From assembly GCF_023100945.1 (NCBI RefSeq), contig NZ_CP064689.1, positions 2,090,001 to 2,154,000 of the forward strand: DNA of 64,000 nucleotides, given 5' to 3'. The notes below the pieces were generated by a model, which did not search any database, had not been told where the DNA came from, and saw only the letters and a program-made list of their open reading frames with translations. The position numbers and the translations under genes are program-made. This DNA comes from Bradyrhizobium sp. 200. Lineage in GTDB: Bacteria > Pseudomonadota > Alphaproteobacteria > Rhizobiales > Xanthobacteraceae. Positions within the stretch are counted from its first letter, which is position 1. Each line of letters begins with the position of its first letter. Positions 27,677 to 61,350 of this stretch are shown in pieces.

Positions 27677-28108
27677 CGATTATACCCTCCAGGAGTGAGC
27701 TTCGAGGTCGCGCCGCCGAACGGCGTCGCCACGGTGGCCTAGAGATGCTCATTGACCTCGTCAACCGTAATACGGTCGGCATGGTTGCCAAATGCCGCCG
27801 TTTACGAAAGGGGAGCACGCGCCGCGCCGCAGCAGGTTTTGTGGCGATACAAATCATCAATGGTTTCGAGGTAACCTTTCCAGCAGCACCCCGAGGTAAC
27901 CAAACCCTCAGGGTGTTGACACCGCGCTCGCGAGTGTCACAAATATGAAAGCAAACCTTGAAATCCTGAGTTTCGCAAGATCGAGGATCACCAGGATCGG
28001 GTGACAGAGGGATTGCGCCGGGATCGGTACTTGGTCGCGCGTGTAGCAGATATGCGCCATCCGATGCTGAATTCTTACCGAAAGTGCACCTCGGGAATGC
28101 CAAAGTTC
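27677..28108. other. Divergent intergenic region
   Basis: A 430-base gap between the reverse acyltransferase and the forward polymerase gene. No gene or clear hairpin was seen; promoters for both are expected. Confidence 0.3.
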
Positions 28109-39138: not shown

Positions 39139-41160
39139 GTGCGTTACGTTGCCTGGTGCCTCGCAGCTTCGTTGCTGGTCTGTACTTCCACGAGCCAGGC
39201 CCAGGTCGCTGAGACCGATGCGCAGAACCGACCAATTCTATCGAACCTTGCCGCTGCCGACTGGAAGAAAAATCTGGCGAGCGGCCCCAACGGTCCAATT
39301 CCGGCGATCGTCGTCGACCAGTTCGGGTATCCGACAAAATCAAGGAAGGTTGCTGTCGTACGCGCTCCTCAGGTCGGCTATGACAGTTCCGCACGATTTG
39401 TGCCCGGCCAATCCTACGCGTTGATCGAACTTCCGAGCGGCAAGGTCGTCAAGACGGGCTCGCCGACCGTTTGGAACGGCGGAAATACGGATCAGGCCTC
39501 GGGCGACAAGGCCTGGTGGTTCGACTTTTCCGAAATCGAGGCGCCGGGCAAGTATGCCGTCGTGGATAGCGAGAAGGGTATTCGCTCGGCAGAATTCTCG
39601 ATCGGCGAGCATGTCTACAAAGATGTCATGAAGCATGCCCTCCGCGCATTTTTCTATCAGCGGGCGGGGTTCGAGAAGAAGCCGGAATTTGCAGGCAAGG
39701 CCTGGGCTGACAAGGCGAGCCACCTTAGCCTCGGCCAGGATTCCGAGTCACGACCTTGGCACGAGGGGCGGCCGTCGAACGCTGCGAAATCGCTGATCAA
39801 GGATCTTCGTGGCGGATGGTATGACGCCGGCGACTACAACAAGTACACCTCTTGGGCGGCGCGCTACATCATCGTTCTGCTGCACGCTTACGCGGAGCAC
39901 CCGGAGGCCTTCAGCGATGACTATGGCATTCCGGAATCCGGCAACGGCCTTCCCGATATTCTCGACGAAGTAAAGTGGGGTCTGGACTGGCTTGTCCGAA
40001 TGCAGAATTCGGACGGCTCACTCCTGTGTGTTCAGGGGCTGGCCAGCGCAAGCCCGCCGTCTGACGCCAGAGGGAATAGCTACTACGGCCCCCCGACCAC
40101 GGCGGCGACCTTGATGGGGGCGGCAGCCTTTGCATACGCCTCCAAGTTCTTTGCGTCTCGGCCGGAGCCGAATCTCAAGCAATACGGAGACGACCTGAAA
40201 ACGCGCGCGACGGCGGCGTGGACTTGGGCGACCGCAAACCCCAACATTCTCTACTACAACAACGACGAGTCAAAGCAGCCGGGTTCAAAGGGGCTGGCGG
40301 CAGGGCAGCAGGAGATGGGCGAGACCGATCGGCTGCGGGCGCAGTTCGAGGCCGCAACCTATCTGTTCGAGATGACCGGCGAGGCGCAGTTCAAGCAGTT
40401 TGCTGACGCCAACTACGGCGCGCTGCTGCCGCCGTGGGGGCCGTCAATGTGGGAAGTCGATGCGCTGGAGAGCCTGCTCTACTACGCGCGGCTGCCTGGT
40501 GCCACACCTGAGGTAGCAAAGTCCATTCGCGAGAGTTTGCTGGCAAACCTGTCGCGGGCTTCACAGGCGTTTCAGGGCTCTCTGGCACAAGCGGATCCCT
40601 ATCGCGCCCCGATGAAGGACTACACGTGGGGTAGCAATAAGGGAAAGGCCATGCAGGCAAGGTTGTTCCAGTTGGCGGCCCTGCACGACGCGGATCCAGG
40701 GGTTTCCGAGACCTCGCTCGCTGCGGCCTTGGAATACGCACACTATATCCATGGCGTGAACCCGCTCGGCCTCGTCTATCTAACGAACATGGCCCTGGCC
40801 GGCGCCAGCCATTCGGCGACGACCATGTTTCATGGTTGGTTTGTACGCGGGTCGCGCTGGCAGCGGGTGACCGATCTGCTCCCAGGTCCGCCGCCAGGCT
40901 TCCTGGTGGGCGGACCCAACCCGCAGTTCTCGGTTGATGCGTGCTGCAGCGCGCCTATTGGGTCGCCCGGATATCGCTGTTACGGGGCAACGATGTTCTC
41001 CTTGTGCCAACGGAATCTCACGCCGCCGTCTGCCCAGCCGCCGGCCAAGTCATATCTTCAATTCAATGACCCGTGGCCGGTGAACTCGTGGGAGATTACG
41101 GAGCCTTCGCTGCACTACCAGTCCTTCTATGTCCGGTTGCTTGCTGCCTTCACCCGTTGA
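39139..41160 (+). CDS. Glycoside hydrolase family 9 protein (endoglucanase-like), secreted
   Basis: A 673-residue protein from GTG with a signal peptide (YVAWCLAASLLVCTSTSQAQ). An Ig-like N-terminal cellulase domain (about 50-170; IPAIVVDQFGYPTKSRKVAV) precedes the GH9 (alpha/alpha)6 barrel with GGWYDAGDYNKYTSWAARY (the catalytic-base Asp pair), DEVKWGLDWLVRMQNSDGS, HYIHGVNPLGLVYLTNM and the final NSWEITEPSLHYQSFYV (the catalytic Glu of N-x-x-E). It cuts beta-glucan chains in the periplasm or outside. Beside an EPS co-polymerase it likely trims or releases the locus's own polymer rather than plant cellulose. Its 3' end overlaps the reverse GT2 by 11 bases. Confidence 0.9.
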   Translation: MRYVAWCLAASLLVCTSTSQAQVAETDAQNRPILSNLAAADWKKNLASGPNGPIPAIVVDQFGYPTKSRKVAVVRAPQVGYDSSARFVPGQSYALIELPSGKVVKTGSPTVWNGGNTDQASGDKAWWFDFSEIEAPGKYAVVDSEKGIRSAEFSIGEHVYKDVMKHALRAFFYQRAGFEKKPEFAGKAWADKASHLSLGQDSESRPWHEGRPSNAAKSLIKDLRGGWYDAGDYNKYTSWAARYIIVLLHAYAEHPEAFSDDYGIPESGNGLPDILDEVKWGLDWLVRMQNSDGSLLCVQGLASASPPSDARGNSYYGPPTTAATLMGAAAFAYASKFFASRPEPNLKQYGDDLKTRATAAWTWATANPNILYYNNDESKQPGSKGLAAGQQEMGETDRLRAQFEAATYLFEMTGEAQFKQFADANYGALLPPWGPSMWEVDALESLLYYARLPGATPEVAKSIRESLLANLSRASQAFQGSLAQADPYRAPMKDYTWGSNKGKAMQARLFQLAALHDADPGVSETSLAAALEYAHYIHGVNPLGLVYLTNMALAGASHSATTMFHGWFVRGSRWQRVTDLLPGPPPGFLVGGPNPQFSVDACCSAPIGSPGYRCYGATMFSLCQRNLTPPSAQPPAKSYLQFNDPWPVNSWEITEPSLHYQSFYVRLLAAFTR

Positions 41161-42019: not shown

Positions 42020-42742
42020 GGCAAAATGCCTACTCTAGGTGCAACTATTACTTTAATTAAAGTATTCAAACTTTCAGAATATTAGCCGTTCCGCGGGTAT
42101 TCGTCTAGCTACCACCTGTTCCAGGAGGGCTCATTCATGATATGGCCTTGGTTAACCATGACTTGGGCTCTTCTGTAATCAGGCGATGGGCTCCCGTAAC
42201 GTCAGGTATATCTGCCGCCGGCCCGCGACGGAGCGTGCACGGTCGACATAAGAGAGCGTTACTCGCACGCCTCGCGGCGGGCCTCCGCCTTTGGGGCTTG
42301 CGTCGTTATAGTGCTGGAATGTTTGCAGCCCGCCCCCGACGCTTTCAGACCAGCGCCGGTCTGTCGGCCGATCCGCCCGCTAGCGACCGAGCCTTAACTC
42401 CGAAATAGAGAATAGATCGGGGATAATCTTCAGGCGACTATGAAGCGAGAAAGAAATCTGCCTCGTACCCAAAGCAAATGACTGGTAGGTTGGATCCGTG
42501 ATCAGTTCGAGCTGTTGTCCGCGTGCCGTCTTTGATTGAAGGAATTTTCAGCAATGTTAGCGTCGGGCTGATCGCGCGCCGCGGAGCTTTGCGCTGCACT
42601 TACTGGAAGAGCGTTGAACCACTTCCATGTTTCCAACGGCCGGGATTGAATGGGCCGAACGTCGTCGGGAGAATCGATCCCGATCGTGCGCGACGAAGCT
42701 CTTATTCGACCCACCCGCCGTCAAGATAAGATAAATTCAAAC
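42020..42742. other. Long gene-free region between EPS and NRPS/PKS blocks
   Basis: 720 bases with no recognisable gene. It holds the 16-base palindrome at 42049 and a GGTTAACCAT site at 42150. It marks the boundary between the exopolysaccharide block and the biosynthetic cluster. Confidence 0.4.
42049..42064. promoter_or_regulatory. Perfect 16-base palindrome before a GT2 gene
   Basis: TACTTTAATTAAAGTA reads the same on both strands. It lies 30 bases upstream of the reverse-strand GT2 start (42019), where an operator for a dimeric regulator would sit. No regulator gene is in the window. Confidence 0.5.
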
Positions 42743-44332
42743 ATGCCGATCCAGATTCAGAAGCGTGCTACGGTGTGGGACGTAGTAGTCGTGGGCTCCG
42801 GCGCCACTGGCGGTTGGGCGGCGTATCAGCTGGGGAAGCATCGCCTCAATGTCCTGGTCCTAGATGCAGGGCCGGACGAGATGGACGCTCCCGGGCAGTC
42901 TCCTGAGTTTGCGACGAGAGCGCTGCGTATGTTCGATCGAGTCCTTCGAAGGCGACGCGTCCAGTCGCGGCATCATGCATACTGGGAGCTCAATCCCCGC
43001 CTGTTCGTGCTCGATAGAGAGCATCCTTACGAGACCCCACCGGGCAAGGACTTTCAGTGGATACGCACTCGCTCCGTCAACGGGCGACTGCTCACTTGGG
43101 GCGGCGTCGGCATCCGGACGTCCGATCACGAGTTCAACGCGCCGCTCCAGGATGGCTTCGGCGCTCCGTGGCCGTTTGGGTACAAAGAACTGCATTCACA
43201 CTTTGACGACGTGGATGATTTCTTCCCCGTCTACGGCGAGCGCGATGGTCTATCCTCTATTCCAGACGGGAAGTATGTCGGCGCTGCGCGCCTGACTGAA
43301 GCTGAACGCGAGCTCAAGCACACCGTGCGCACCGCGTTCGGGCGAGCGGCTGTGAGCGGGCGTGGCGTTCTCATTCGGCCGAGTGCGCGGCCTAACGGAG
43401 AGGCCGCGCCGCCTTCGCCCTTGCGTGAAGCGATGAGGAAGTTCGGCGTTAGCCTATGTCCGAATGCCGTCGTGAGTCACGTGCTCGTAGGGCCGGAGGG
43501 CAAAGCCAGCGGCGTCGCCTTCGTCGATCGGCTCACGAAGGGCGCCCAGGAGGTGCAGGCACGCGTTGTCGTCGTGTGCGCATCCGCGATCGAGTCGGCC
43601 CGTATCTTGCTAAACTCCCGGTCGCGCCACCACCCTCAGGGTCTAGGCAACTCGTCTGGCACGCTGGGGTGCTATCTGATGGATCACCCAGGGGTCGCGG
43701 TTACTGGCTTTGCGCCCGGCCGACGCGACGAGGTGTGGAGCGATGGGTACGGGGGGCCGAAGAATGTCATGATACCGCGTTTCCACAACCTCACCAACCG
43801 GGCCGACGGCGCGTTCCTTCGCGGCTATGGCACCTTCGGCATGCTGGGCCGGTTGTCGGCGAAGGCCAGCGATTGCGATGCCGATGAAGTGCCGTTCGCC
43901 CTGGTGTCACATGGTGAAATGCTGCCTCGCATCGAGAATCATATCAGCTTGCACCCCGACAAGCGGGATGCTTGGGGCGTTCCCACATTGCGAATTGATT
44001 GTGCCTACTCCGACAACGAGCGAGCGCTGCAAACCCACATGGCGGAAGAGCTCAAAGAAATGATTGCGTCTGTTCGTGGTCGGGTGACCGGGACGCACTA
44101 TTATCCACCGGGCGGTTTTGTCCACGAGATGGGGACGGCGCGCATGGGCGCTGACGCGCGGACGTCTGTCCTCAACGGGTATGCGCAATGCTGGGATGCG
44201 CGGAATGTATTCGTGATGGACGGCGCCGCGTGGCCCTCGGGCGCGTGGCAGAACCCGACGTTCACGATGATGGCCATCGCCGGGCGCGCCAGCGCGCACC
44301 TCGTTCAGGAACTCAAGGCCGGACGGATCTGA
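42743..44332 (+). CDS. GMC-family FAD oxidoreductase (copy 1)
   Basis: About 529 residues from ATG 42743 (MPIQIQKRATVWDVVVVGSG). It has the FAD-binding G-x-G-x-x-G of VVVGSGATGGWAAYQLGKHR, NGRLLTWGGVGIR, and the C-terminal GMC signature HEMGTARMGAD followed by VFVMDGAAWPSGAWQNPTFT (His/Asn active-site pair). It oxidises an alcohol on a sugar, sterol-like or polyketide substrate and has no visible signal peptide. It is convergent with the reverse-strand GT2-DegT-NRPS run, and its 3' end overlaps that GT2 by 20 bases. A relative lies at 62347. Confidence 0.85.
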   Translation: MPIQIQKRATVWDVVVVGSGATGGWAAYQLGKHRLNVLVLDAGPDEMDAPGQSPEFATRALRMFDRVLRRRRVQSRHHAYWELNPRLFVLDREHPYETPPGKDFQWIRTRSVNGRLLTWGGVGIRTSDHEFNAPLQDGFGAPWPFGYKELHSHFDDVDDFFPVYGERDGLSSIPDGKYVGAARLTEAERELKHTVRTAFGRAAVSGRGVLIRPSARPNGEAAPPSPLREAMRKFGVSLCPNAVVSHVLVGPEGKASGVAFVDRLTKGAQEVQARVVVVCASAIESARILLNSRSRHHPQGLGNSSGTLGCYLMDHPGVAVTGFAPGRRDEVWSDGYGGPKNVMIPRFHNLTNRADGAFLRGYGTFGMLGRLSAKASDCDADEVPFALVSHGEMLPRIENHISLHPDKRDAWGVPTLRIDCAYSDNERALQTHMAEELKEMIASVRGRVTGTHYYPPGGFVHEMGTARMGADARTSVLNGYAQCWDARNVFVMDGAAWPSGAWQNPTFTMMAIAGRASAHLVQELKAGRI

Positions 44333-45383
44333 TGCTTGCCGTGCCACGCTTTGCCAGCGGCGGCCGATAGTGACCGGTGGTTCGGTTTAGCGGCGCGCGG
44401 AGGCCGTCGAAAAAACCGCGAGCGAGCATGTAGGGCCGGCGGAGCCCTTGCGGGGGGCGCCCGTTCAGTAAATCTTTCATGGGCGCGACGGCGCCGAAGC
44501 GAAAAAGGAGTGGGATCGCCATCGCCGCAATGCGCAGGTGACCCGTCTTCAGATATTTGGCCAATGTGCCGCCGATGCCGTAGAAATCGCGCATGCCGTG
44601 CGCCCGTAGCTGTTCGAGCGTGCGAAACCCGTCATGCACCACAGTCGCGTCCGCATTTTCGCATATCCACCAACCTCGCACGAGGCCCCGCCACGCGATA
44701 TCGTTGTCCTCGCACGCCGAGAACGCACATCCTGGACCAAGCATTTCGTCGAATCCCTGCACGTCCGTTAGGATCGATCGCCGGATCGCCATGCCGGCGC
44801 CCATCCACAGCGGCTGGGACGGTCTGAGGTCACGGAGGCTACGAATCAGCCGAGTCTCCGGGAAACGAATCTGCGGCGTGTGCCCCGGTTCGCTGCACGG
44901 CGCCGGCTCCACGTTGCAGTACACGACGCCAATTTCAGGATGCATCTTGAACGGCGCCGCCAACCGCGACAGCCAGTCGGGCGGGACGATGCAATCGTCG
45001 TCGGTGATAGCGATGATGGGCGCCGTCGTCAGCTCGAATCCGCGGTTACGTGCACGGCTCGTGCCCGCGATGTCGCAGTGCACGTAGCGAATCCGCGGGT
45101 CGCCGAGGAACGGCTCCAAGGCGCGCCGAGTTTCGTCGTGAGGACTCTGATCGACAATTACGAACTCGAAGTCCGATATCTCGCTGCGCAGCATCGACGC
45201 CACGACCGGGACGATCCGTGCGCCGCGGTTGTACGTGGCGATGACCACAGCGTAGCGCGGCAACGCGGACTCCGCGATGCTGTGTTGCGACGTTTCCAGA
45301 TTGGCTACGACCGTCGAGGCCAGGATGCTCTCACGCTCTCGGGGAGGAATTTCATTGCTCTCAATGACTACCCGGGAGGTCAT
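44313..45383 (-). CDS. Family 2 glycosyltransferase, DQS/TDDDC subgroup
   Basis: About 356 residues from ATG 45383, which overlaps the stop of the DegT gene as ATGA, so the two are translationally coupled. Motifs are YAVVIATYNRGARIVPVVAS, FVIVDQSPHDETRRAL, SRARNRGFELTTAPIIAI, TDDDCIVPPDWLS and GFDEMLGPGCAFSACEDNDI, ending FFDGLRAPLNRTTG. It is the third member of the subgroup, but lies inside the NRPS/PKS cluster. It may put a sugar, perhaps the aminosugar made by the coupled DegT enzyme, on the cluster's product. Confidence 0.85.
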   Translation of the reverse strand: MTSRVVIESNEIPPRERESILASTVVANLETSQHSIAESALPRYAVVIATYNRGARIVPVVASMLRSEISDFEFVIVDQSPHDETRRALEPFLGDPRIRYVHCDIAGTSRARNRGFELTTAPIIAITDDDCIVPPDWLSRLAAPFKMHPEIGVVYCNVEPAPCSEPGHTPQIRFPETRLIRSLRDLRPSQPLWMGAGMAIRRSILTDVQGFDEMLGPGCAFSACEDNDIAWRGLVRGWWICENADATVVHDGFRTLEQLRAHGMRDFYGIGGTLAKYLKTGHLRIAAMAIPLLFRFGAVAPMKDLLNGRPPQGLRRPYMLARGFFDGLRAPLNRTTGHYRPPLAKRGTASIRSVRP

Positions 45384-46516
45384 CGCTTCGTCTTCCCGAC
45401 GAGCTGCCGGTATACGAGCGTCGGGACCTCTGGAAATAGCTTGATCTCGCAAGTTCGCTCGAGGATATGGAGCGTTTGCGGGCAGCTGTCCTCGCGGATG
45501 CGCAAGTCATTACGGGATGCCCACGTGTAGGGATCCAACTTGGGATGCATGGTCGCACCGCTGCGGATCGATGCCCAGTCCTTGTAGACATGATCTCCCT
45601 CGATCAGTCGAGCAATCCCCCGCTGGGATCCGAACATACGCGCTTCCTCCGGGTCATCGAAGCACACAGTAATTCCGACGGCGGAGTCCGGATCGTTGTG
45701 GGGGCTCACCTTCATTCGATTGCCGAACGGCCCTGACAGTTTGTCCAGCCAGTAGAGGCGCCGAGCGCGACGGCGTTTGAGTTTTTTGTCCAACGTACGG
45801 ATCTGTGGCCGTAACATCGCGGCGGCTAGGTTTGTCATCCGGTAGTTTTGCCCGATGAATATCGGTTCACTTGTGCCAACCCGCCCTGGGCGAAAGTAGC
45901 TGCCGGGGTCGTGGTACATGAGCGCGCGCGTGTACGCCCGCTGCGAGTTCGTTAGCACGGCTCCACCTTCACCGGACTGGATGTTCTTCAGAACGTTGAA
46001 GCTGAAGGCTCCCGCGTCGCCCATCGTCCCGCATCGCCGGCCTCGGTAGGTCACGCCGACGGCCTGAGAGGCGTCCTCAATCACGACAAGGTTGTGTTCC
46101 TTGGCAATCGCTAGGATCGCATCCATGTCGCACACCAGGTTGAGCATGTGGACGACGATGATCGCCTTGGTGTACGGCGAGATCTTCTGCCGTATGTCCT
46201 CGGGATCGATGGTCAGCGTCTCATTGATTTCGGTCAGCACGGGGACGGCGCCGACGGCCAACGGCGCGCCGGCTGTAGCCACGTACGTGTAGCCAGGCAC
46301 AAGAACTTCGTCCCCCGGACCGATCCCACAACCTACCAGCGCGCTTATTAGAGCGCTCGTGCCGCTGTTCACCCCAAGCACGTGACGCACGCTCAGGAAA
46401 TTCTGCATCTCCTGCTCGAAGCGCTCGACGTCGGACACGCTGGAGGAGCGGTACCTGCCCAACTCGCCGCCAACAAGAACTCGAAGCGCCGAAGCTATGA
46501 CCCGCATGTCAATCAT
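45380..46516 (-). CDS. DegT/DnrJ/EryC1/StrS-family PLP aminotransferase
   Basis: A 378-residue PLP enzyme. It has GVNSGTSALISALVGCGIGP, DEVLVPGYTYVATAGAP, VVIEDASQAVGVTYRGRRCG (PLP-ring Asp) and FSFNVLKNIQSGEGGAVLTN with the Schiff-base Lys, then NYRMTNLAAAMLRPQI. Family members aminate keto-sugars on nucleotide carriers or make AHBA-like units. AGGAG lies 10 bases before the ATG. It follows the NRPS gene by 174 bases on the same strand and is coupled to the GT2, suggesting an amino-sugar or aminated starter for this cluster. Confidence 0.9.
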   Translation of the reverse strand: MIDMRVIASALRVLVGGELGRYRSSSVSDVERFEQEMQNFLSVRHVLGVNSGTSALISALVGCGIGPGDEVLVPGYTYVATAGAPLAVGAVPVLTEINETLTIDPEDIRQKISPYTKAIIVVHMLNLVCDMDAILAIAKEHNLVVIEDASQAVGVTYRGRRCGTMGDAGAFSFNVLKNIQSGEGGAVLTNSQRAYTRALMYHDPGSYFRPGRVGTSEPIFIGQNYRMTNLAAAMLRPQIRTLDKKLKRRRARRLYWLDKLSGPFGNRMKVSPHNDPDSAVGITVCFDDPEEARMFGSQRGIARLIEGDHVYKDWASIRSGATMHPKLDPYTWASRNDLRIREDSCPQTLHILERTCEIKLFPEVPTLVYRQLVGKTKR

Positions 46517-46690: not shown

Positions 46691-49600
46691 CTAGCGGCCA
46701 CCGCGTACCTCGCGTCTTCGCTGCATCATTTCCCTGCGAAGCTGGCCACGATTTTGCTCCGGCGGGACCGCAGCATGGCCGGGATCGGTCTCGGAACCTG
46801 CGATCGCGGCGGCCAAGCTGCCTAATGTCGGAAACTGGAAAACACGAACAAGGGACATCTTGAGTCCCAGCTCCGCGCGGATCTTCTCGACGACCCGGAC
46901 CATCATCAAGGAATTGGCACCCAGATCGAAGAAGTTGTCGTCGACCCCTATCTCGTTCATTCCCAGCAATTCCCGGAAGATGGCAGCAAGCTTGCGCTCC
47001 ACTTCTGTGGCGGGCGGAATAAACGGCGTGGCGGTCTCCTGGCGCGCGCCGTCCGGCGAAGGCAATCCCTGGCGATCAAGCTTGCCATTGGGCGTCAGCG
47101 GCAGCGCCTCCAGCGGCACGAATGCCGAGGGAATCATGTACTCAGGCAAGGAGCTGCGCAAATGTTGTCGCAGTGCGGGCACAAGATTCGCTCCCGCGAC
47201 CGCTCGCAACGCGGGGCGATTTGCGTAGGTGGACAAGTCAGCCGCGGCGAGATCACGGCGTGACGCTCTTTCCGTCGCTGCCATTTCCGTCGGAGCCACG
47301 GCCGCTTCCGCCGCTTTTCGGAGCCGGAAGACAGCATCGAAGTATCCCGGTCCTGCGTCCGACCAATCGACGGCTACCTCATAATTCGCGTCGAGTACGC
47401 GCACGTCTTCGGGATCGATCCCCGAGGGCAGAGAGGAGGGGCCCACGGCTATCTCACCCAGCCGGTCGGCGGGAGAGCGGGCGTTGAGTGCGCGCAGCGC
47501 GGCCAGCGGCGCCGAAACCCGAGCGTTGGGGATTCCGGTAATACGCAGCGAGGCCGGCTCGGACCGCACCATCGTCTTCAGGGCCTCGAGCGTGCAGGGC
47601 TCGGGGGCTCGCCTGGTGTTTGTGACCATTGGCAATCGCGGCATTCCACCACGCTTGCGGATCACCACGTCGTAGCGGAAGCGGGTCATCTCGCTCGGCT
47701 GGCGGCCGAGCTTGAGTTCCACCTGCACGTCTTCGACTTCGGGAAGCCGCTGCCGGAGCGACAGGAACAGGTTGGGGTCCAGCACCAGTTCCGACTCTTC
47801 ATCGAGCCGTTTCTTCAACCGGGCCTGAAGCTCACCTGCGGGAGCGTCGGACGAGGCCTTCTGCAACTCAATCTCGCAGAGCATCGCCTCCAGCAGCGCG
47901 CGGCTGCGCACGTCACCCACAAAGATCGCGCCACCCGGGGCCAGCCGCTCGAAGGCCGCCACCAGCACGTCGAGGAGATACTCCACACCAGGGAAATATT
48001 GGACGACCGAGTTGATAACAATTGTGTCGAAAGGCCCGCCCTCGAGGGCAGCCAGCGTGTCGGCGGCCCTTTGCTCCAGAACCACGCCGCCCAGACCTCG
48101 CCGATCGGCCTCAGCCTTCACCCGCGCCAGAGCAGCCGCAGACAGATCGATGCCGTGATAAAGCTCGCAGCCCGGCGCGATGCGGAAGAGAACCATACCC
48201 GTACCGAAGCCTACCTCGAGCACGCGCCGTGGGCGCAGCCGCTGAATCCGTTCGGCCGTGCATTCGATCCATTCGCGCATTTGGGCTTCGGGAATCGGAT
48301 CGCCCGTATAGCTGCTCCTCCAGCCTGCGGTCTCCGAGGCGCCGTCATGCCGGTAAGTCTCGTCCCAGATCGTCTCCCAGTGCGCCGTTGTCGGAGCGCT
48401 GCCCTGGGTGGGCGCGACGACGTAAGCGATGAGCCGCTGTGCGCCGGCCGCATCCGGTCCGGCCACGACCGCGCTCTGTCGTACCGAGGGATGTCGATTC
48501 AATACAGCCTCGATCTCGCCCGGCTCAATCCGGTGACCTCGGATCTTCACTTGATGGTCGTGACGTCCCAAATACGCAAGCGTGCCATCGGGCAGCCACT
48601 GCCCGAGATCGCCAGTCCGGTAGAGGCGAGATTCAGGACCGCCAAAGGGATCGGGGACAAAGCGCTCTAGGGTCAGCTCAGGTCGCTCCAGGTAGCCTCG
48701 GGCTACGCCGGCGCCCCCAATCAGGATTTCACCGGGTACGCCGACCGGCAGCGGCCGCAGGGATCGATCGACCACATAGACCGTGGTGTTTGCAACCGGC
48801 CTTCCGATCGTGATCGGATCATCGGCGCCACCCACCGGACTGGTGGTTGACCATATGCATGTCTCCGTGGGGCCGTACATGTTGTGGATTTCGCCCCGGT
48901 AGCTTGTCCGCAATCGCTCGACCAGCGTGCGTGGCAGTGGTTCGCCGCCAACAAGCAGCTTGCGTAGCGAGCCCAACGCGTCGAGCGAGGCCTCGTCCGC
49001 AACCAGCATGCTTGCCAGGGACGGGGTGGCCTGAAGGTGGGTCACGCCGTGGCTACGAATCTGCGAAGGAATATCCAGCACCGGCGCGTTCGAGACCGGA
49101 GTAACGGACGGATTGGACATGCGACGCAATTCGTCCAGGTAGGGAAGGCTGGCCAGCACGTCATCGGCCGCGACTCCGAAGTCGATCAGGCAGGCGATCT
49201 CATCGACGCCAAATTGCTTCAGTTTTTCGATCGTGGCCATGCAGGAGGTCGGAGATCCGAACAAGCCCGCAGTCTTGAAGTAGCGATCGAACGCATGTTC
49301 CATGATGGCGTCGAGCTCTTCCGGCTCCAGGTCGGCCAGGCTCATGTTCGGCGCCGCCTGTTCTTTTCGGTCATCGCCCTTGGCGAAGGCGGTCAACTCC
49401 CATCGCATCTTGGAAATGAGATCGGTCGAAGTCTTCAAGTATTCCAGGAAGGGGCCGCGAACCTTGTTGCGCACGGCGTCCACGTCTGGGGCCACGAAGG
49501 TGTGCAGCATGAGGGTCACTATGCCCGCCCCGTCGTGGCCGGCGTCGGTCCAGGCCTTGCGGTAGATGGCAACGTTCTCAACAAGTTGCTCGGGCTTCAT

Positions 49601-52267
49601 CACCAAAAGGTTTGTCAGCACGTTGGCGCCCAGCCGTCCGGCAAGCGCAAAGGTCTCCGGCGCAGAGCTTGCGGTCACCCACATCTTGGGTTCGCGTTGC
49701 ACTGGAGGTGGAAAAGTTTTTACTTCAACCGGCTGACCGTCGCCGCCAATCGCCTTGACCGCCTCGCCGCGCCAGAGCGCCTTCACGGTTTCGATGCCGC
49801 TGGCCATAAGCTCACGGCGATTCTTGTAGTTCTCCGGCTGCAGCACGAAGTCGCGGGCGTGCCATCCAGAGGCGAAGCTCAGCCCCACCCGGCCGTTAGA
49901 GAGGTTGTCCACGACGGACCATTCCTCTGCGACACGAATCGGATTGTGCAGCGGCAGCACGACGCTCCCCGCCCGGATGCCGATGCGCCGGGTAACCGCT
50001 GCGACTGCGGCGCCAGTCAAGGCCGCGTTAGGGTACAGGCCGCCGAAAGGATGGAAATGACGCTCCGGCGTCCACACGGCGGAGAAACCGTGCTCGTCGG
50101 CATACTTTGCTCCTTCAAGCAACAGGCGGTACTTGCCGCCGGCCGCCTCGGCAGCATCGGCGGCAAAGTAAAATAGACTGAAATCGATCGGCCTCGCGTC
50201 CAGTCCCGTCCTCGTCGCCGCGCGCGCCAGCCGCTCGGGCTCCTGCTGGATGGCCACGGTGAAGCCGCGCGCCAGCGTCCAAAACAACTCCAATACCGAA
50301 ATGTCGAAGGAGATGCTGGTGGTTGCGAGCCAGACGCCGGGTTCCGTCCCCAACACCTGGTCCATGGCTGTGAAGAAATTCGCGACGTTGCGGTGTTCGA
50401 TCATGACCCCCTTGGGACGACCGGTGGAGCCCGACGTAAAGATGACATAGGCAAGGTGTTCGCCGGTCATGGCCACGCGCGGCCGAGCCGCTTCTCCGGG
50501 TTCCGCGGCCGCGTCTACACACAGCGCATGGCTGTGAGGCGGCAGCGAGCCAGCCAGGTTCGTGGTCGTTACCACCAGGCGGGCTCGCGTGTCCTCGAGC
50601 ATCAGTGCGATTCGCTCACTGGGGTAGGACGGATCCATCGGCACATAGGCTGCACCAGCCTTGAGGATGCCCAGCAGACCGACCATCATTTCGATCGACC
50701 GCTCGACGTAGATGCCGACCATCTGGTCGGGTCTCGCGCCGTTAGCGATCAGGGCTTGGGCCAGATGATTGGCACGGCGATCCAGGTCGCGGTAGGTGAG
50801 CGAGCGGTCGCCGTCGACAAGCGCGATCGCATCCGGTGTGCGGTCGGCCTGTGCTTCAAACGCCTCGTGCACGCAGTGCGGCCCCGCCAGCGGTTTTGCC
50901 GTATCATTCCAGATCCGGAGCGTCGATCGCGCATCCTCCGACGGCAGCCGTGGCATATCGCCGAGCCTGGTCTCAGGCCGGTGCGCTATCGCGACAAGGA
51001 TCGCTTGCAGCAGGTCGGCGATTCGCTCGACGGCGGCGGGTGCAAAACAGCTCGTGTCGTAGGACAGCGTGAAGGTCAACTGGGGGCCGTCATAGGCCAT
51101 CACGTTGAACGGGAAATTGGTCTGGTGGTGCATCATGGACTCGCGATGCTGCCATTCCGGACCGAACGATTTCAGGCGTGCATCGTCGGTTTGAGGATTG
51201 AAGACGATGATGGAGTCGAATAGTGACTGCCCGCGACTGACCTCGCTGGCGCGAAGAATATCGACGAGCGGGGTGTGTTCGAACCGTTGCAGCTCGATCT
51301 GCTGCTCGCGCAACTGGCGGCAGAGTTCGAGCACGGGCAGCTCGAAGGGAAGCTTGACCCGCATCGGCACCGTATTGATGAACAGCCCGAGAATACGATT
51401 AGCACCTTCGATCGACGACCGGCGGCAGGCTCTGATGACGCCATAGGCGACATCGTCCTGGGCCGAGAATGCCGAGAGCACGAGCGCCCACGCGGCCTCG
51501 ACCAAGACGGGCGTCCGCAGCGATTCCCGTTCGCAGAGCGCATGCAACTTGCTCGTATCGGTTGGCGAGAGTGCAAGTGCCAGCGTGGCGTGACCCGCCG
51601 CGGGTTGCTCATGCGAAGTTGGAATTCGTAGCGCCTCGAGATTGGTCGGCGTCCGGAAACCGACCAGAGAATTGCGCCAGTAAGCCTCGGCTGCCGCGGC
51701 GTTGGTCGTCAGATGCTGTTGCAGCCAGTCGATATGCTCCCGGTATGCCGGGCGCGCTTCGAACGACGGTGGCTCACCGCGCGCTGTCGCGGCGCAGATG
51801 TCGAACACCTCTTTCACAACGGAGGCGAAACAGGAATCGAGGATCGCGTGCGAATAGGTGAAGACGATCTGGCGGCGATCGCCGCCGAGCTGCAGCACCG
51901 TCACGCGCCACAGCGGTGCAACGTCCAGCGCGAAGGCACGCGATCGATCTTCGGCAAGGAAACGGCTCAGTGCCTCTGCCTGCTCCTCTGGCGTCATCGC
52001 CGACAGGTCGCGTATCTCGAACGGGACCACGATCTCGTGCAAGACCTCCTGAAGCGGAGCTTTCAGTCCTTCCCAGCGGAATCGGGTGCGCAGGATCGGC
52101 TGCTGCTTCGCAACCCTTGCCCAGGCGTCGGCGAGGCGGTTCGTGTCGATTGGTTCATTGAGCCGTATTTCGAGCTGCTCGACGTCCACGCCCCGGGCGC
52201 GAGCCTCGAGGTGATGAAACAGCATGCCTTGCTGAAGCGGCGAAAGAGGGTAACTGTCCTGAACCAT
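46691..52267 (-). CDS. NRPS module: C-A(luciferase-like monooxygenase, methyltransferase)-PCP
   Basis: About 1,858 residues. A condensation domain (1-430) has SHAILDS at 139-145 in place of H-H-x3-D-G. The adenylation domain starts near 470 (YVIFTSGSTGRPKGVMIEH). Between A4 (ISFDISVLELFW) and A5 (NMYGPTETCIW) lies a ~350-residue FMN luciferase-like monooxygenase (about 693-1044; FSLFYFAAD, WTPERHFHPFGG) of the MupA/Atu3671 type. After A8 (HQVKIRGHRIEPGEIEAVL) comes a SAM methyltransferase (about 1299-1539; VLEVGFGTGM). A10 (LPLTPNGKLDR) and a PCP (DNFFDLGANSLMM) end it; there is no TE. The ten A-domain residues read D655 I656 L659 Q1079 L1105 G1107 M1130 I1138 W1139 K1729, predicting glycine. 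ATG 52267 is favoured over GTG 52285. Confidence 0.92.
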   Translation of the reverse strand: MVQDSYPLSPLQQGMLFHHLEARARGVDVEQLEIRLNEPIDTNRLADAWARVAKQQPILRTRFRWEGLKAPLQEVLHEIVVPFEIRDLSAMTPEEQAEALSRFLAEDRSRAFALDVAPLWRVTVLQLGGDRRQIVFTYSHAILDSCFASVVKEVFDICAATARGEPPSFEARPAYREHIDWLQQHLTTNAAAAEAYWRNSLVGFRTPTNLEALRIPTSHEQPAAGHATLALALSPTDTSKLHALCERESLRTPVLVEAAWALVLSAFSAQDDVAYGVIRACRRSSIEGANRILGLFINTVPMRVKLPFELPVLELCRQLREQQIELQRFEHTPLVDILRASEVSRGQSLFDSIIVFNPQTDDARLKSFGPEWQHRESMMHHQTNFPFNVMAYDGPQLTFTLSYDTSCFAPAAVERIADLLQAILVAIAHRPETRLGDMPRLPSEDARSTLRIWNDTAKPLAGPHCVHEAFEAQADRTPDAIALVDGDRSLTYRDLDRRANHLAQALIANGARPDQMVGIYVERSIEMMVGLLGILKAGAAYVPMDPSYPSERIALMLEDTRARLVVTTTNLAGSLPPHSHALCVDAAAEPGEAARPRVAMTGEHLAYVIFTSGSTGRPKGVMIEHRNVANFFTAMDQVLGTEPGVWLATTSISFDISVLELFWTLARGFTVAIQQEPERLARAATRTGLDARPIDFSLFYFAADAAEAAGGKYRLLLEGAKYADEHGFSAVWTPERHFHPFGGLYPNAALTGAAVAAVTRRIGIRAGSVVLPLHNPIRVAEEWSVVDNLSNGRVGLSFASGWHARDFVLQPENYKNRRELMASGIETVKALWRGEAVKAIGGDGQPVEVKTFPPPVQREPKMWVTASSAPETFALAGRLGANVLTNLLVMKPEQLVENVAIYRKAWTDAGHDGAGIVTLMLHTFVAPDVDAVRNKVRGPFLEYLKTSTDLISKMRWELTAFAKGDDRKEQAAPNMSLADLEPEELDAIMEHAFDRYFKTAGLFGSPTSCMATIEKLKQFGVDEIACLIDFGVAADDVLASLPYLDELRRMSNPSVTPVSNAPVLDIPSQIRSHGVTHLQATPSLASMLVADEASLDALGSLRKLLVGGEPLPRTLVERLRTSYRGEIHNMYGPTETCIWSTTSPVGGADDPITIGRPVANTTVYVVDRSLRPLPVGVPGEILIGGAGVARGYLERPELTLERFVPDPFGGPESRLYRTGDLGQWLPDGTLAYLGRHDHQVKIRGHRIEPGEIEAVLNRHPSVRQSAVVAGPDAAGAQRLIAYVVAPTQGSAPTTAHWETIWDETYRHDGASETAGWRSSYTGDPIPEAQMREWIECTAERIQRLRPRRVLEVGFGTGMVLFRIAPGCELYHGIDLSAAALARVKAEADRRGLGGVVLEQRAADTLAALEGGPFDTIVINSVVQYFPGVEYLLDVLVAAFERLAPGGAIFVGDVRSRALLEAMLCEIELQKASSDAPAGELQARLKKRLDEESELVLDPNLFLSLRQRLPEVEDVQVELKLGRQPSEMTRFRYDVVIRKRGGMPRLPMVTNTRRAPEPCTLEALKTMVRSEPASLRITGIPNARVSAPLAALRALNARSPADRLGEIAVGPSSLPSGIDPEDVRVLDANYEVAVDWSDAGPGYFDAVFRLRKAAEAAVAPTEMAATERASRRDLAAADLSTYANRPALRAVAGANLVPALRQHLRSSLPEYMIPSAFVPLEALPLTPNGKLDRQGLPSPDGARQETATPFIPPATEVERKLAAIFRELLGMNEIGVDDNFFDLGANSLMMVRVVEKIRAELGLKMSLVRVFQFPTLGSLAAAIAGSETDPGHAAVPPEQNRGQLRREMMQRRREVRGGR

Positions 52268-52271
52268 GGTA

Positions 52272-52276
52272 CTCCC
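52272..52276 (-). promoter_or_regulatory. Ribosome binding site that fixes the NRPS start
   Basis: GGGAG on the reverse strand ends 4 bases before the ATG at 52267 and overlaps the coding frame of the alternative GTG at 52285. This favours the ATG. Confidence 0.6.
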
Positions 52277-52720
52277 AGAGCTCACCGCGAGCGATCGATC
52301 GGGGAGCCAAAACCGATTTGGACCCGTCGGTCACCGTTACAATAATAAACAAAATGATACTATAAATGAGGCGCAATATGGCTAATATAATCGGCCACAT
52401 TCAGGAAGCGAATCTTCGTTCGCGGTCTGTCATCAGGCTTAGGTCGGGAAGCGTACATGCAACTAACCCTTAACCTTACTATCGATGGATCGTGATCAAT
52501 CAAAGGTTTAGCCATCGCGCCCTATGAACGGGGATGCCAGATGCTTGGCGATTGCAGGCGGGATATAGTTAAAGGCAGCTTGGCCAAGCTGTCCACCGTC
52601 GATCAACCCGGCGTTGTGGCATTGAGTGTCGAGCGCAAACGCAGTCCATTAACCCACCTTCGGTTTTCAGCTTGAATCACCAGTGCTTTATCGCTGATTT
52701 ACGGCCTCGGAGCGTGCCCA
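52277..52720. promoter_or_regulatory. Shared divergent promoter region of the NRPS and PKS genes
   Basis: About 440 bases between the two megasynthase genes. The NRPS-proximal part is AT-rich (AATAATAAACAAAATGATAC, then TATAAATGA and GGCTAATATAATC), in contrast to the GC-rich genes, and near 52470 there is CTAACCCTTAACC. Both genes are probably controlled from here. No regulator gene is nearby. Confidence 0.5.
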
Positions 52721-55700
52721 GTGCAGGATTTAGTAGTGCAAGACGGAGGCACGACAGGCAGCGAAGCATCTTCCATCGCAATTGTCGGTATGTCGGGACG
52801 TTTCCCCGGCGCACCCAACGTGGCGACGTTCTGGAAGAATATTCGTGAGGGTCGTGAAACCATTCGTGTCTTCACCGAGCAGGAGTTGCTCGCCGCTGGC
52901 GAACGCCCCGAGCTTCTGCGCGACCCGGCCTATGTCAAGGCATGCGGCTACCTCGACGATATCGACAAATTCGATGCGGCGTTTTTTGGCATCTCTCCTC
53001 GCGACGCCGCGGTCTTCGACCCGCAGCACCGCTTGTTTCTCGAATGCGCATCGGAGGCGTTCGAGGATGCGGGTTACGTAGGCGGGAAGATCGGGGGCCC
53101 GGTCGCCGTCTTTGCTGCATCAGGCGCGAGCGACTACTTCACTTACAACCTCGCGACCAACGAAGAGGTTCTGCGCTCGATCGGGGTGTGGCTGCTCCGT
53201 CACACCGGCAACGATCCCAACTTTCTCGCAACGCGCGTATCCTACGAACTGGACCTCGTTGGCCCGAGCATGAATGTACAGACGGCTTGTTCGTCGTCGA
53301 TTGTTGCGGTTCATCTCGCTTGCCAGAGCCTCCTCAACGGAGAGTGCGATGTGGCGCTTGCCGGCGCCTCCACCATCTATCCGGAACAGCTAGGCTACGT
53401 GTACAGGCCGGGGGAGATCCTGTCTCCTGACGGTCACTGTCGTGCGTTCGACGCCCAGGCCGGAGGCACCGTGATGGCCTCCGCGGTCGGTTGTGTCGTT
53501 CTCAAGCGTCTCTCGGACGCCGTGCGGGACGGCGACTGTATCCGTGCCGTGATCCGCGGCTCGGCGCTCAACAACGATGGCTCCGACAAGGTGGGGTACC
53601 TCGCCCCGAGCGTCAGCGGGCAGGCTCGGGTGATTGCCGAGGCTCTGGATCTCGCCCGTGTCGCTCCCGAAGACGTGTCATATGTCGAGGCGCACGGCAC
53701 CGGCACTCTTATCGGTGATCCGATCGAGATCGCTGCCCTGGTTCAGGCTTTCGGGCCTGAAGTCCAAAAGCAATCATGCGCCATCGGCTCGGTCAAATCG
53801 AACATCGGCCACGCCGGTGAGGCCGCGGGCATGTGCAGTCTGATCAAGACCATCTGTGCCCTCGAGCACCGCGAGTTGCCGCCCTCTCTGCACTATCAAT
53901 CGCCAAATCCGCAGGCTGACCTTTCCAACTCGCCATTCTTCGTCAATACCAGCCTGCGCCCCTGGTCGGTAGCGCCTGGCAAGACGCGGATCGCGGGCGT
54001 CACGAGCCTCGGCGCGGGTGGGACCAACGCCCATCTCATCTTGGAAGAGGGCCCAATTCGACCTCCACAGACCCGCGGTGACGCAGGATCGCAACTGCTT
54101 TTGCTCTCGTCACGCAGCAGCGCTGCGCTTGAGGTGGCGGCCGGCAATCTGGCCAGCTATCTGCGGGCGCATCCAGGGCAGCCGCTGGACGAGGTCGCAT
54201 TCACGCTGACGGCCGGGCGCGAGGCCTTTGAGTTTCGTCGTTCTCTGGTGGCGTCCGATGCGGCCGCTGCGGCGGCTGCGCTGGAAGCCGGAGATCCGCA
54301 GCGCGTGTTTACAGGCAAGGCCGTGCGAGAGCCCACCTCCACGGTGTTTCTCTTCCCCGGCGGCGGAGCGCAATACGCCGGCATGGGTGCGGAACTCTAC
54401 GAAAAGGAGCCGGTCTACCGCGACGCAGTGGACGCTTGCCTCTCCGTGGTTCAGCCCCAGTTCAAGCTCGATCTGCGTCGCTTGATGTTTCCACCGCCCG
54501 ACGAGATGGCCAAGGCGGACAAGCAGTTGGAAGCACCCTCTTTGGCGCTTCCTGCACTCTTCGCGGTCGAGTATGCCCTTGCGATGCTGCTGCAATCGTG
54601 GGGCCTTGTCCCGGCCGCGCTGATCGGGCATAGCGCCGGCGAGTATGCCGCGGCCTGTATCTCCGGCGTATTCACGATGCCGGATGCAATTTCGCTTGTC
54701 GCGCTGCGCGGCATGTTGTTCGAGAAGCTGCCACGCGGTGCCATGCTATCGCTCGCGTTGCCCGAGGAGCAAGTGCGCCCGCTTCTCGGAAGCGAGCTTT
54801 CGCTTGCGGCAGTGAACGGACCTTCGCTTTGCGTCGCATCGGGACCGGTGGACGCGATCGCACGGCTCGAGTCGAAGCTCGCTGCGGAAGAGATCGAGCA
54901 TACGCGCGTGCACATCGACGTCGCCGCCCATTCGTCGATGCTTGAGCCGATCCTGTCGGAGTTCGAGCGCTTCTGCAGACCTATCGCCTTCCAGAAGCCG
55001 AAGATTCCGTTTGTGTCCAACCTGACCGGCACCTGGATCACAGACAGCGAAGCGACGGACCCGGCATACTGGGTCCGTCATCTCCGAAACACCGTGCGGT
55101 TCGACCAGGGCGCTCGGACCTTGCTGGGGACTGGAAGTCGCGCGCTGCTGGAAGTCGGACCTGGCCGCACGCTCGCCAGCCTCTGCAGGCAGCAGCCTAA
55201 GAAAGCCGCGGTGGTAGCCACCGCGCTCCGCCATCCCAGCGAAGCGGCGTCTGACGTCACTTTTCTGAAGGAGGCGGTAGGGCGGCTCTGGGTTGCAGGC
55301 ATCGAGATCGATCCCAGCCGTTTTTTCGCGCGCGATTCACAACGGCGCGTCTCGTTGCCCACCTATCCCTTTGAGAGGCAGCGATACTGGGTCGACAAGG
55401 GCGTCCGGGCCGCGCCCTCGCAGTCGCTGACACGGCGACCCGATCTGGGCCAGTGGTTCTCGGCACCTTCGTTCCTGCGTGCGGCGCCCTCCGAGCCGCT
55501 TTCCGCGGAGGAGCTTCGCAAGCCGTGGCTGGTTTTCACCGACAAGTCACCGCTGGCCAGGGCAATCGTCGAACGCTTGCGCGCGTTCGGCGCACGGGTG
55601 TCCACGGTAGTATCTTCGGGCCATTTTGCGGAGCGCGGCGAACTGAGCTTCGCGATCGATCCGGCCCGCGCAGCCGACTATTCCAAGCTGATGGAGGTGC

Positions 55701-58700
55701 TGCGAATTCAGGATGCGCTGCCGGCGCATATCGTGCACCTGTGGGCGCTGGCTCCGAGGCCCCGGCGGTTCTTTGGCTCCTCCAGCGACGCCGACCTTGC
55801 CGCCTGGGAGCGAGGAGCGGTCCGGAATTTCTACAGCTTGATGTTCCTGTCTCAGGCGTTGGCGTTCGAGGTGGACCAGGTCCGCCTGACCGCCATCGGC
55901 ACCGCGATCGAGGCACTTCCCGGCGAGCGCGAGGTGCATCCCGAAAAGGCCGTCTTGATGGGGGTCTGCCGCGTGCTGCCGCGCGAGATGCCGGGCGCAT
56001 CATGCTCGGTACTGGATGTGGTCGTGCCGCGCGCAGGATCCGACGCGGAAGCGCTCCTGGCCGATCGCCTGATCGGCGAATTGTACGGTCGCAAGCGCAA
56101 CCCACTGGTCATCCTGCGCGAGGGCGGGCGCTGGGTGCAGCGTTTTGACCCGCTCGTGCTGGACCCCGCGCCGGGCGTTCGCAGCTGGTTGCGCCCCAGC
56201 GGGGTGTATCTAGTTACCGGTGGCCTGGGCGGCATAGGTCAGGAGTTGATGGAGCATCTGGCGCGGCACGCGAAGGCTCGCCTGGTGTGCGTCGGCAGGT
56301 CTCCGATGCCACAGGAATCGGCTTGGGATCGCTGGCTGCAGGAACATGGCGAGCAGGACGATACATCGCGCAGAATCGGGAAGGTGCGGGCGTTGCAGGC
56401 GCTCGGAGCCGAAGTGATGCTGGCTACGGCCGACGTCACCGACCGCGAGGCCATGACCCATGTGGTGGGCGAGGCAAGTCGACGCTTTGGCCGGATCAAC
56501 GGTGTCTTCCATTGCGCCGGCGTGCTCAAGGATCAGTTGATCGCACTTCGCGCTCCCGATACGGCCTCTGCGGTGCTTTCGGTCAAGGCCAAAGGTGCCC
56601 TGGTTCTGCAGTCGCTGTTCGCCGATGGGGATCTGGATTTCCTGATCCACTTCTCTTCGGTCAGCTCGATCCTCGGGCTGCCAGGTCAGGTCGACTATAC
56701 CGCTGCCAACGCTGTTCTGGATGCGTTGGCGAAGGCGCACACGGCTCGGGGCAGTCGGACGCGCACCGTCAGCATCAATTGGAACGCCTGGAAGGAAGTG
56801 GGCATGCTCGCGACGCTGGTTCGCGAGCGCAGCGGGCCGACGGCAAATAATTTAAGCCGTACGGGCTCTCTCCTCGGCGACTGCGTGCTGGACGACGCCG
56901 AGCAGACGCTGTTTCACTCCGTGCTGCACCCCCGAACACATTGGCCGATAGGCGAGCATGTCGTCAGGGGCGGGCAGGCGGTAATTCCGGGCACGGGTTT
57001 CCTGGAGCTTGCGCGGGCGGCGCTTGCCTATCGGTTCGAGAACCGGCCCATCGAGATTCGCGATCTCGTATTCCTTCAGCCATTTGCTGTCGGGCCTGAC
57101 GAGACGCGTGCGATCAACATCAGGCTGAATCGCGAAAGCGATCATAGCCTCGTGATCTACGGCGATTCCGAGGAGCAGCCCTACGCGACGGCGCGCGCCG
57201 CGTATGTCGATTCGTCGCCGGGCCCAAGGCAATCGGTGTCGACCATCCGCGGCCGCTGCCGCGAGCGTGGCGAGGTGGTGAACGGCCGGTTGGTACAGAA
57301 CTTCATGGAATTCGGTCCCCGCTGGTCCAACATCCAGGCGATCCACCTCGGCCAGGGCGAGGCGTTGATCGACCTCGCGTTGCCGGCCGGCTTCGGCTCC
57401 GACGTCGCGACCTATGCGCTGCATCCGGCGCTGCTCGACATGGCAACCGGCGCCGCCCAGAAGCTGATTCCTGGATTTGCAGGCGATGACGATTTCTATG
57501 TGCCATTCTCCTATGGCCGCGTGCTGGTGACGCGGCCGGTGCCCGCAACCCTCTCCAGTCACGTGCGCTTGCGGGCAGCGGAAGGTAAAAGCGCGGTCTT
57601 TGACGTGACGTTGCTCGATGAAGAAGGCAACGAGCTGGTCTCGATCGAGCGGTTCATCATGCGCCGGGTCGAGGCGTTCGCGACCATACCGGCCTCGTCC
57701 AAGCCGGCGCGGCCAGATGGCCCCGAGACGGCCGAGGAAGGTTTCCTGCGCGAGGGCATGACCACTGCGGAGGGTCTTGAAGCGCTCGATCGTATCCTCG
57801 CCTGCAACGTCTCGCCGCAAGTCGTAGCTTCTACCCTCGACCTCGACCTCTGGCTGGATCGGCTGGACCATGGCGGTCGCGGCACTCCGGCGGAGGACGC
57901 AAACTGGTCCATTGGAACGCCCGGTCTCGTGCGTCCCGGCGGCGATGCCGGCGTCAAAGCGCCCCGCGATGCGATTGAGCGGGACCTGGCGGCAATCTGG
58001 AAGGAGATGCTGGGCGTTCAGCAGGTCTCGATCGACGATGACTTCTTCGAACTGGGCGGGCAGTCGCTGATCGCAATGCGGCTCTTCAACCGCATTCGCA
58101 AGGAGCATGGGGTCGAGCTGCCGCTATCGGTGCTGTTCCAGGCGCCAACTATCGCTGCCACGGCGGCGCTGTTGCGGGAGGCCAAGGGCTTGCCGGCGAT
58201 CGATCCGTCAGCGGACGGCGTCGATGCGTCCGTTCAGGCGAGCGCCGAAGACTTGCTCCCGGCGGCGTGCACGTCGGCAACCGCCGAACATGTGGCCAAA
58301 GATTTTCCAATCGCAGCGGACGCACAGCCATCAAGCGTTCCGGCGGCCTCCCGATCGTTGGTCGAGATTACACGGGGCGGCAATCGACCGCCGCTGTTCT
58401 GCGTCCATGGTGCCGGTGGCAATGTGCTCAACTTCCGCGACCTCTCGTGGGGGCTGCACCATGACCAGCCTTTCTTCGCGCTGCAGGCCCGCGGTGTGGA
58501 TGGCGCGACTGAGCTGCATCGCTCGATCGAGGAGATGGCTCGGGCTTACGTCGAGGAAATCCGCGCGTTGCGGCCTCACGGTCCCTATTTTCTGGCCGGC
58601 TATTCAGGCGGAGGCGTCGTCGCCTTCGAGATGGCGCAACAGCTCAAAGCGCTGGGCGAAGAGGTTCCGCTCCTCGTGTTTTTCGACACGTACCACCCTC

Positions 58701-61127: not shown

Positions 61128-61350
61128 TGGACCAGCAGCGAACCGTCGCAAATCGGCAGATAACTGAGCGTGGCTGCGGCGAGAGAAGCCCTCATTCTGA
61201 ATTTCCTGAAGGATACTTCGGCTGCAAGCCGATGGAATTATAATACGCAATTGTCTAGCAGCCGGGCAGGGGTGTTTCAAGCGCTCGCTCCGCCGCCAAG
61301 CCGCAGCACGCTGCGGCAGCCGGTGATGTTCGCAAGATACGTGCTGCGCG

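Follow-up and report, generated by a model that had tools for sequence, protein, structure and literature searches.

What does an assembly-line module produce when it selects glycine, carries two tailoring enzymes inside a single adenylation (A) domain and is encoded among genes for a polysaccharide? The question is raised by a non-ribosomal peptide synthetase (NRPS) of 1864 amino acids, encoded on the minus strand (positions 46691 to 52285, with a GTG start at 52285 and an ATG start at 52267) of a stretch of 64,000 nucleotides from Bradyrhizobium sp. 200, hereafter the window.

A glycine module with two built-in enzymes

The domains of the NRPS, in the order C-A(1)-LLM-A(2)-MT-A(3)-PCP and all on the minus strand, begin with a condensation (C) domain (50930 to 52264) which matches Pfam PF00668 over its full length and carries the altered motif SHAILDS where HHxxxDG is expected. 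The A domain that follows is interrupted twice. Its first part (50216 to 50860; A1 to A4, PF00501, with the A3 and A4 motifs) is separated by a luciferase-like FMN monooxygenase (LLM, 49124 to 50182) from a second part (48398 to 49060; A5 to A8), behind which a SAM methyltransferase (MT) with a C-terminal subdomain (47291 to 48379; Methyltransf_12) precedes the tail of the A domain (47051 to 47173; A9 to A10, NGKLDR). The peptidyl carrier protein (PCP, 46802 to 46993; PF00550, LGANSL) is the last domain; no thioesterase (TE) lies behind it, the TE being located on a polyketide synthase (PKS) partner.

A first-pass annotation of this DNA had proposed a glycine-specific A domain interrupted by an oxygenase between A4 and A5 and by a methyltransferase after A8, and the present analysis agrees with it on the glycine code and on the position and the kind of both inserts. 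The TIGR04020 profile matched between the A4 and A5 motifs with 494 bits (cut-off 244), the nearest solved relative of the LLM by sequence was PuwE (6KET, E 1.3e-106), and the assignment also draws on a model. By motif reading, the specificity code is DILQLGMIWK, which predicts glycine; the identical code is printed in the accessible text of PMC12283262 for four glycine domains with monooxygenase (MOx) character. The MT, located between A8 and A10, found one strong match among solved structures, the A-MT-A protein TioS (5WMM, E 5e-52 over 350 residues), the next match being at E 9e-6. It corresponds to the A-MT-A type of interrupted A domain, with an N-MT type of sequence, and across 321 residues it is 40% identical to its counterpart in a corallorazine-like NRPS encoded on a Burkholderia glumae plasmid; N-methylglycine is reported for corallorazine itself in the accessible text of PMC11342130. 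N-methylation is thus the most likely role of the MT, the choice of N- over O-methylation being judged by family alone.

Purifying selection was detected on all NRPS domains when dN/dS was calculated against relatives. In the comparison with the relative L019 it was strongest on the LLM (dN 0.06, dS 0.93), with dN 0.145 and dS 0.905 for the C domain and dN 0.118 and dS 0.768 for the MT. Decay of the module was considered and rejected on the basis of the open frame, the motifs present outside the C domain and the purifying selection. The double-insert glycine module is confirmed as real and intact.

Distribution of the oxygenase insert and of the double insertion

Among 195 genomes drawn from the genus, 8 contained a TIGR04020 match above cut-off, and a double-insert NRPS was found in 5 of these, that of the window included. 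In one of the other three (G091, locus L024), a formyltransferase (F) domain and an LLM were recovered on a contig that ends inside the LLM. Draws from the order and the phylum, which overlap and both include the genome of the window, gave TIGR04020 matches at E 1e-90 in 16 of 397 and 19 of 398 genomes; an MT follows the LLM in three and two of these, respectively.

A scan of one genome per species recovered at least 542 stretches encoding a relative, while a scan of viral contigs found none. The best 80 of the at least 542 were analyzed further, their domains being labelled by phmmer with domains of the window and of a few relatives rather than by Pfam. In all 80 the match starts ahead of A4, runs across the LLM and extends at least to A5, which makes the single insertion common; an MT was also present in 9 of these 80. 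In a tree of LLM sequences (91 rows, SH-aLRT), the window falls within a starred group of 13 rows which all carry an MT, with one further MT-bearing row (L040) placed just outside it. The LLM of the corallorazine-like B. glumae NRPS is located far from this clade, on long branches. Since at least three changes of the MT label are needed on this tree, the double insertion is likely to have had more than one origin.

The first-pass impression that the double insertion is rare holds as far as its frequency is concerned. Its novelty is not supported, because 38 corallorazine-like pathways with a MOx inside the nMT-bearing glycine A domain had been described in 2024; according to the accessible text of PMC11342130, they come from Serratia and Pseudomonas without exception. 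The double insertion is therefore uncommon, not new. A corallorazine-like cluster whose glycine A domain contains an LLM and an MT was also observed on the B. glumae plasmid NZ_CP099586.1 (L009). A separate observation concerns a plasmid of Streptomyces sp. NBC_01006 (L010), which encodes a single-module NRPS with an LLM insert, a terminal TE and the deviating code DMVQLGMVW, neighboured by LysW/LysX, aspartate kinase and methylaspartate mutase (amino-acid pathway genes) and by a flavin reductase.

Conserved partners and the polysaccharide neighbourhood

Beyond what the first pass had described, the NRPS has a PKS partner, an SGNH-like protein and a polysaccharide locus around it. An intergenic region (52286 to 52720) separates the NRPS from a divergently encoded type I PKS of the order KS-AT-KR-DH-ACP-TE (52721 to 59203, plus strand), whose catalytic motifs were present by inspection. 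Behind the PKS, on the minus strand, are the genes of an SGNH-hydrolase-like, possibly exported protein conserved beside the PKS (59254 to 60375; motifs GHSL ... DxVH) and of a 4'-phosphopantetheinyl transferase (PPTase, 60372 to 61427; PF17837, PF01648). The label SGNH-like is taken from the motifs, because the protein had no Pfam match even at E 10, no sequence match among solved structures and no match at E 0.001 or better in a fold search, for which the model was poor (mean pLDDT 44).

The NRPS, the PKS and the SGNH-like gene occur together in all seven loci where that side is covered, namely the window, G164, G172 and G008 of the same genus, two Hyphomicrobium genomes and one close MAG (L034-L036, L114-L116), and their SGNH-like proteins are 68-76% identical to that of the window by BLAST. 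Apart from this cassette, little in the compared flanks of G164, G172 and G008 has a match in the window, and no gene for a loading protein or for an acyl or peptide donor was found among the genes common to the four. The PPTase, an aldo-keto reductase and a GMC oxidoreductase (59-64 kb) were rejected as pathway genes, since nothing in the 45-50 kb surrounding the cassette matched them in these three genomes; PPTases do recur near other relatives (in L114 by inspection). Two GMC-type oxidoreductases (42650-44332 and 62347-63825) flank the NRPS and PKS on either side in the window, and neither was matched in the compared regions of G164, G172 and G008.

The divergent orientation of PKS and NRPS is shared by the window and 7 of 7 further loci with MT and C domain that cover both genes, while the two genes lie on the same strand in 30 other listed loci. 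More widely, a KS-AT-KR-DH PKS frame accompanies an NRPS of single-module size (<2,100 aa) on the stretch examined in 34 of the best 80 relatives, a TE not being visible in all of them. A widespread arrangement of two genes, in which F-(C remnant)-A(Gly, LLM)-T precedes KS-AT-KR-DH-T(-TE), was observed as directly adjoining open frames in nine loci (L039, L059, L064, L071, L095, L097, L100, L108 and others) from hosts which, by record title, include sphingomonads, Planctomycetota, Chloroflexota, Burkholderiales and myxobacteria. In the open-licence papers searched, where an absence weighs little, no such pair, no such pair in a polysaccharide locus and no product of it was recognised.

Around the NRPS, the exopolysaccharide locus contains a DegT-type sugar aminotransferase (45380 to 46516, minus strand; PF01041), a family 2 glycosyltransferase (44313 to 45452, minus strand; PF00535), a Wzz/tyrosine-autokinase-like chain-length protein (36751 to 38973, plus strand; AAA_31 E 1.4e-12, Wzz E 2.5e-5, the latter just under the Pfam cut-off) and a Wzy_C polymerase/ligase (28001 to 29461, plus strand; PF04932), together with an acyltransferase-3 and several glycosyltransferases. 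A family 9 glycosyl hydrolase of the cellulase type is also encoded within it (39139-41160). Just right of the window, two PF02397 sugar transferases are found 15.5 and 19 kb from the LLM, and by inspection the frames further right resemble a continuation of the same locus. Three PF02397 genes were seen there within 12 kb, in one polysaccharide locus (G000, 2155711, 2159188 and 2166768). In Hyphomicrobium (L114), the cassette adjoins a PF02397 gene and, by inspection, a PPTase-like frame and Wzx-, Wzz- and Wza-like frames. By inspection, G172 contains a second NRPS-like frame (2,144 aa; L117, 11365-17796) at ~13-20 kb from the LLM, where polysaccharide-type genes and two frames resembling hydrolases adjoin it.

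A first count of polysaccharide markers was set aside as circular, its queries having been drawn from the same loci, and we relied on PF02397 for that reason. The test covered 36 chosen genomes with loci of the single-module type; 4 came from the genus, and 32 were taken from the 56 loci of this type that the best 80 relatives include. By our reading, 11 of the 36 genomes have a PF02397 gene no more than 30 kb from the LLM, where gene numbers and genome sizes predict 1.5 (tail probability 1e-7, uncorrected for kinship), and 19 have one within 60 kb (3.0 expected; tail probability 2e-12, likewise uncorrected); the gene near the LLM is broken in G214. With one genome retained per close group (genus, Hyphomicrobium-type, sphingomonads), our count was 7 of 29 and 12 of 29 at the two distances. 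None of 18 control genomes, taken from 24 loci with other LLM-NRPS layouts, had a PF02397 gene within 60 kb, contig breaks lowering test and control figures alike. The polysaccharide link thus holds for part of the group, not all of it. A polysaccharide role of the product is a correlation only, since 17 of the 36 genomes have no PF02397 gene within 60 kb (some contigs being short), the distance is 30 kb in G172, 36 kb in G164 and 52 kb in G008, and the right part of the window, the cassette excepted, is nearly unmatched in the compared flanks of these three.

Candidate chemistry and comparison with known systems

The reading that we favour, and to which we give an even chance, is that glycine is loaded, N-methylated and alpha-oxidised, and that a single extension then gives a small unsaturated unit, perhaps destined for a polysaccharide. 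From the anatomy of the genes we infer the following steps, in this order. The A domain would activate glycine and load it onto the PCP, the built-in MT would convert glycyl-PCP to sarcosyl-PCP, and the built-in FMN oxygenase would hydroxylate the alpha carbon next to the thioester, alpha-hydroxylation being the published reaction of FMO domains in glycine modules (PMC10204066, accessible text). The PCP would then hand the unit to the divergently encoded PKS, which would add one C2 unit, reduce it and dehydrate it; one extension with KR and DH leads us to expect a 4-amino-but-2-enoate, oxidised at C4 and N-methylated. The TE of the PKS would release a small product of the 4-(methylamino)-4-oxidised-but-2-enoate type, either open or closed by the TE to a hydroxypyrrolinone or an aminobutenolide. 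Butenolide and hydroxypyrrolinone natural products serve as analogies for such a product. A destination on or with the polysaccharide, for the product itself or for an acyl group derived from it, is suggested by the SGNH-like protein and by the exopolysaccharide genes nearby. A point against this scheme is that free alpha-hydroxy-sarcosine would be unstable.

How the line starts bears directly on this scheme. An N-terminal F domain was labelled by phmmer in 39 of the best 80 relatives; Pfam confirmed it in five of the six proteins submitted, the exception (L096, with only the back half of a C domain) being negative by phmmer too, and the motif N-x-H..LP..G was present in 38 of 40 F domains examined, L024 of the window's own genus being one of the 40. 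In the sister group, F stands at the N-terminus and is followed by an apparent remnant of a C domain, and F, LLM and MT are found together in L044 and L051. The NRPS of the window has a full C domain in place of the formyltransferase, and its neighbouring PKS has the same domain order as in the pairs of the type F-A(LLM)-T plus KS-AT-KR-DH-T-TE. A formyl-glycine loading module with a PKS behind it is known from phthoxazolin (PtxE; PMC5764310, accessible text). Glycine would thus be the starter, capped by a formyl group in the sister group and by a methyl group in the lineage of the window, and the NRPS is probably the first module of its line. A broader proposal, which we consider tentative and somewhat unlikely to be correct as a whole, is a widespread two-gene pathway in which a formylated or N-methylated glycine start, built-in alpha-oxidation, one PKS extension and release by the TE would give a small, reactive, amino-acid-derived C4 unit for installation on exopolysaccharide, with the SGNH-like protein as a transfer or editing enzyme in the window's branch.

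The first-pass annotation had instead drawn an analogy with the amide termini made by MtaG and MelG. In a reading of this type, an upstream acyl or peptidyl chain would be condensed onto N-methylglycine, and the oxygenase would make a carbinolamide that breaks into an N-methylamide and glyoxylyl-PCP, the latter being extended by the PKS or hydrolysed. The oxygenase does correspond, in kind and in its A4-A5 position, to the insert of those glycine domains, and the accessible texts describe such a fate for myxothiazol and melithiazol (PMC10204066) and put it forward for corallorazine pathways that carry a MOx (PMC11342130). However, the model fits poorly, because no TE follows the PCP and an adjoining PKS with KS, AT, KR, DH, ACP and TE is conserved alongside; no acyl or peptide donor is common to the window, G164, G172 and G008, and the C motif is altered. 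Cleavage of this kind is therefore unlikely here.

The same C domain could, alternatively, be active and add an acyl group from CoA or from a distant carrier, in which case the product would be a small lipopeptide, namely an N-acyl-N-methyl-alpha-hydroxyglycyl polyketide. The domain may have kept its ability to condense an acyl donor, since it is complete (PF00668 1-452) and under purifying selection, it keeps the second His and the Asp of its motif (residue 145), and HHxxxDG is intact in the MT-bearing relative L040; the intact motif also occurs in several MT-less single-module relatives (such as L080, L090, L093 and L112). The motif is altered in L037 and L041 as well, and L038 has no match to the pattern. 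Nevertheless, the first His and the final Gly are replaced, as SHAILDS, in every one of the seven loci covering the motif (window, same-genus and Hyphomicrobium-type), no loading enzyme is common to the compared genomes, and the sister group has the formyltransferase ahead of what appears to be a C remnant, so that we regard an N-acylated product as unlikely.

Oxidation of the glycine nitrogen, with the MT acting on O or N to give an O-methyl oxime or an N-methyl nitrone of glyoxylate that is extended to a methoxyimino-butenoyl unit similar to those of necroxime and lobatamide, was kept as an alternative because the necroxime model of PMC7318616 (accessible text), with its glycine primer, oxygenase, MT and dehydratase for the oxime side chain, also fits this anatomy. 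It is nonetheless unlikely, as the FMO reactions of glycine modules in the accessible text of PMC10204066 are alpha-hydroxylations of carbon. The MT also matches an N-MT-type protein, and necroxime comes from a trans-AT line. The oxygenases of oxime-forming systems are not known to be of the LLM type, which we also counted against it.

If our favoured product decorates a polysaccharide, assembly-line chemistry would gain an unexpected place in bacterial surface biology, and, if the broader two-gene proposal is true, an NRPS-PKS line would be dedicated to polysaccharide decoration, with the double-insert module as its N-methylating branch; the three-gene cassette makes the idea directly testable. 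Pairs of a single-module NRPS and a KS-AT-KR-DH PKS recur in distant bacteria, some near polysaccharide genes. The A(LLM+MT) module is also a compact natural example of two tailoring enzymes in one A domain, of use to structural studies and to engineering.

Parts of this module have counterparts in known systems. The A4-A5 place of the flavin monooxygenase in a glycine A domain, which the first pass had likened to MtaG and MelG, is the one stated for these enzymes of myxothiazol and melithiazol synthesis (PMC10204066, accessible text); however, those modules end in a TE and release an amide, whereas that of the window has an additional MT, no TE after the PCP and a PKS partner. TioS (5WMM) shares the MT inserted in an A domain, in a construct without an oxygenase insert. 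In module 4 of SolF, a glycine module with a built-in FMO, hydroxyglycine is kept in solanimycin B and the chain continues, unlike the cleavage in myxothiazol and melithiazol; the FMO is stated to lie between A8 and A9, and the term methyltransferase is absent from that paper (PMC10204066). PtxE, like LgrA a case of formylation, shares glycine initiation followed by a PKS, and the nearest large group of relatives has F and LLM, but PtxE is described as F-A-PCP without LLM or MT, and the clade of the window has a C domain instead of F. A further resemblance is with clade I of the corallorazine-like pathways with MOx (PMC11342130, accessible text) and the B. glumae NRPS L009, where a glycine A domain, which in L009 also reads DILQLGMIW, contains MOx and nMT. 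That line is a bimodular lipodipeptide system with a serine module, an A2 domain split over two genes, a thioester reductase and acyl-chain and P450 genes, while the window has one unsplit module with a PKS neighbour, an LLM that branches apart and an anatomy outside the crz definition. The novelty of the window lies in where the module is found, namely in a polysaccharide locus and as part of a conserved NRPS-PKS-SGNH cassette, which belongs to a large group of single-module NRPS and PKS pairs.
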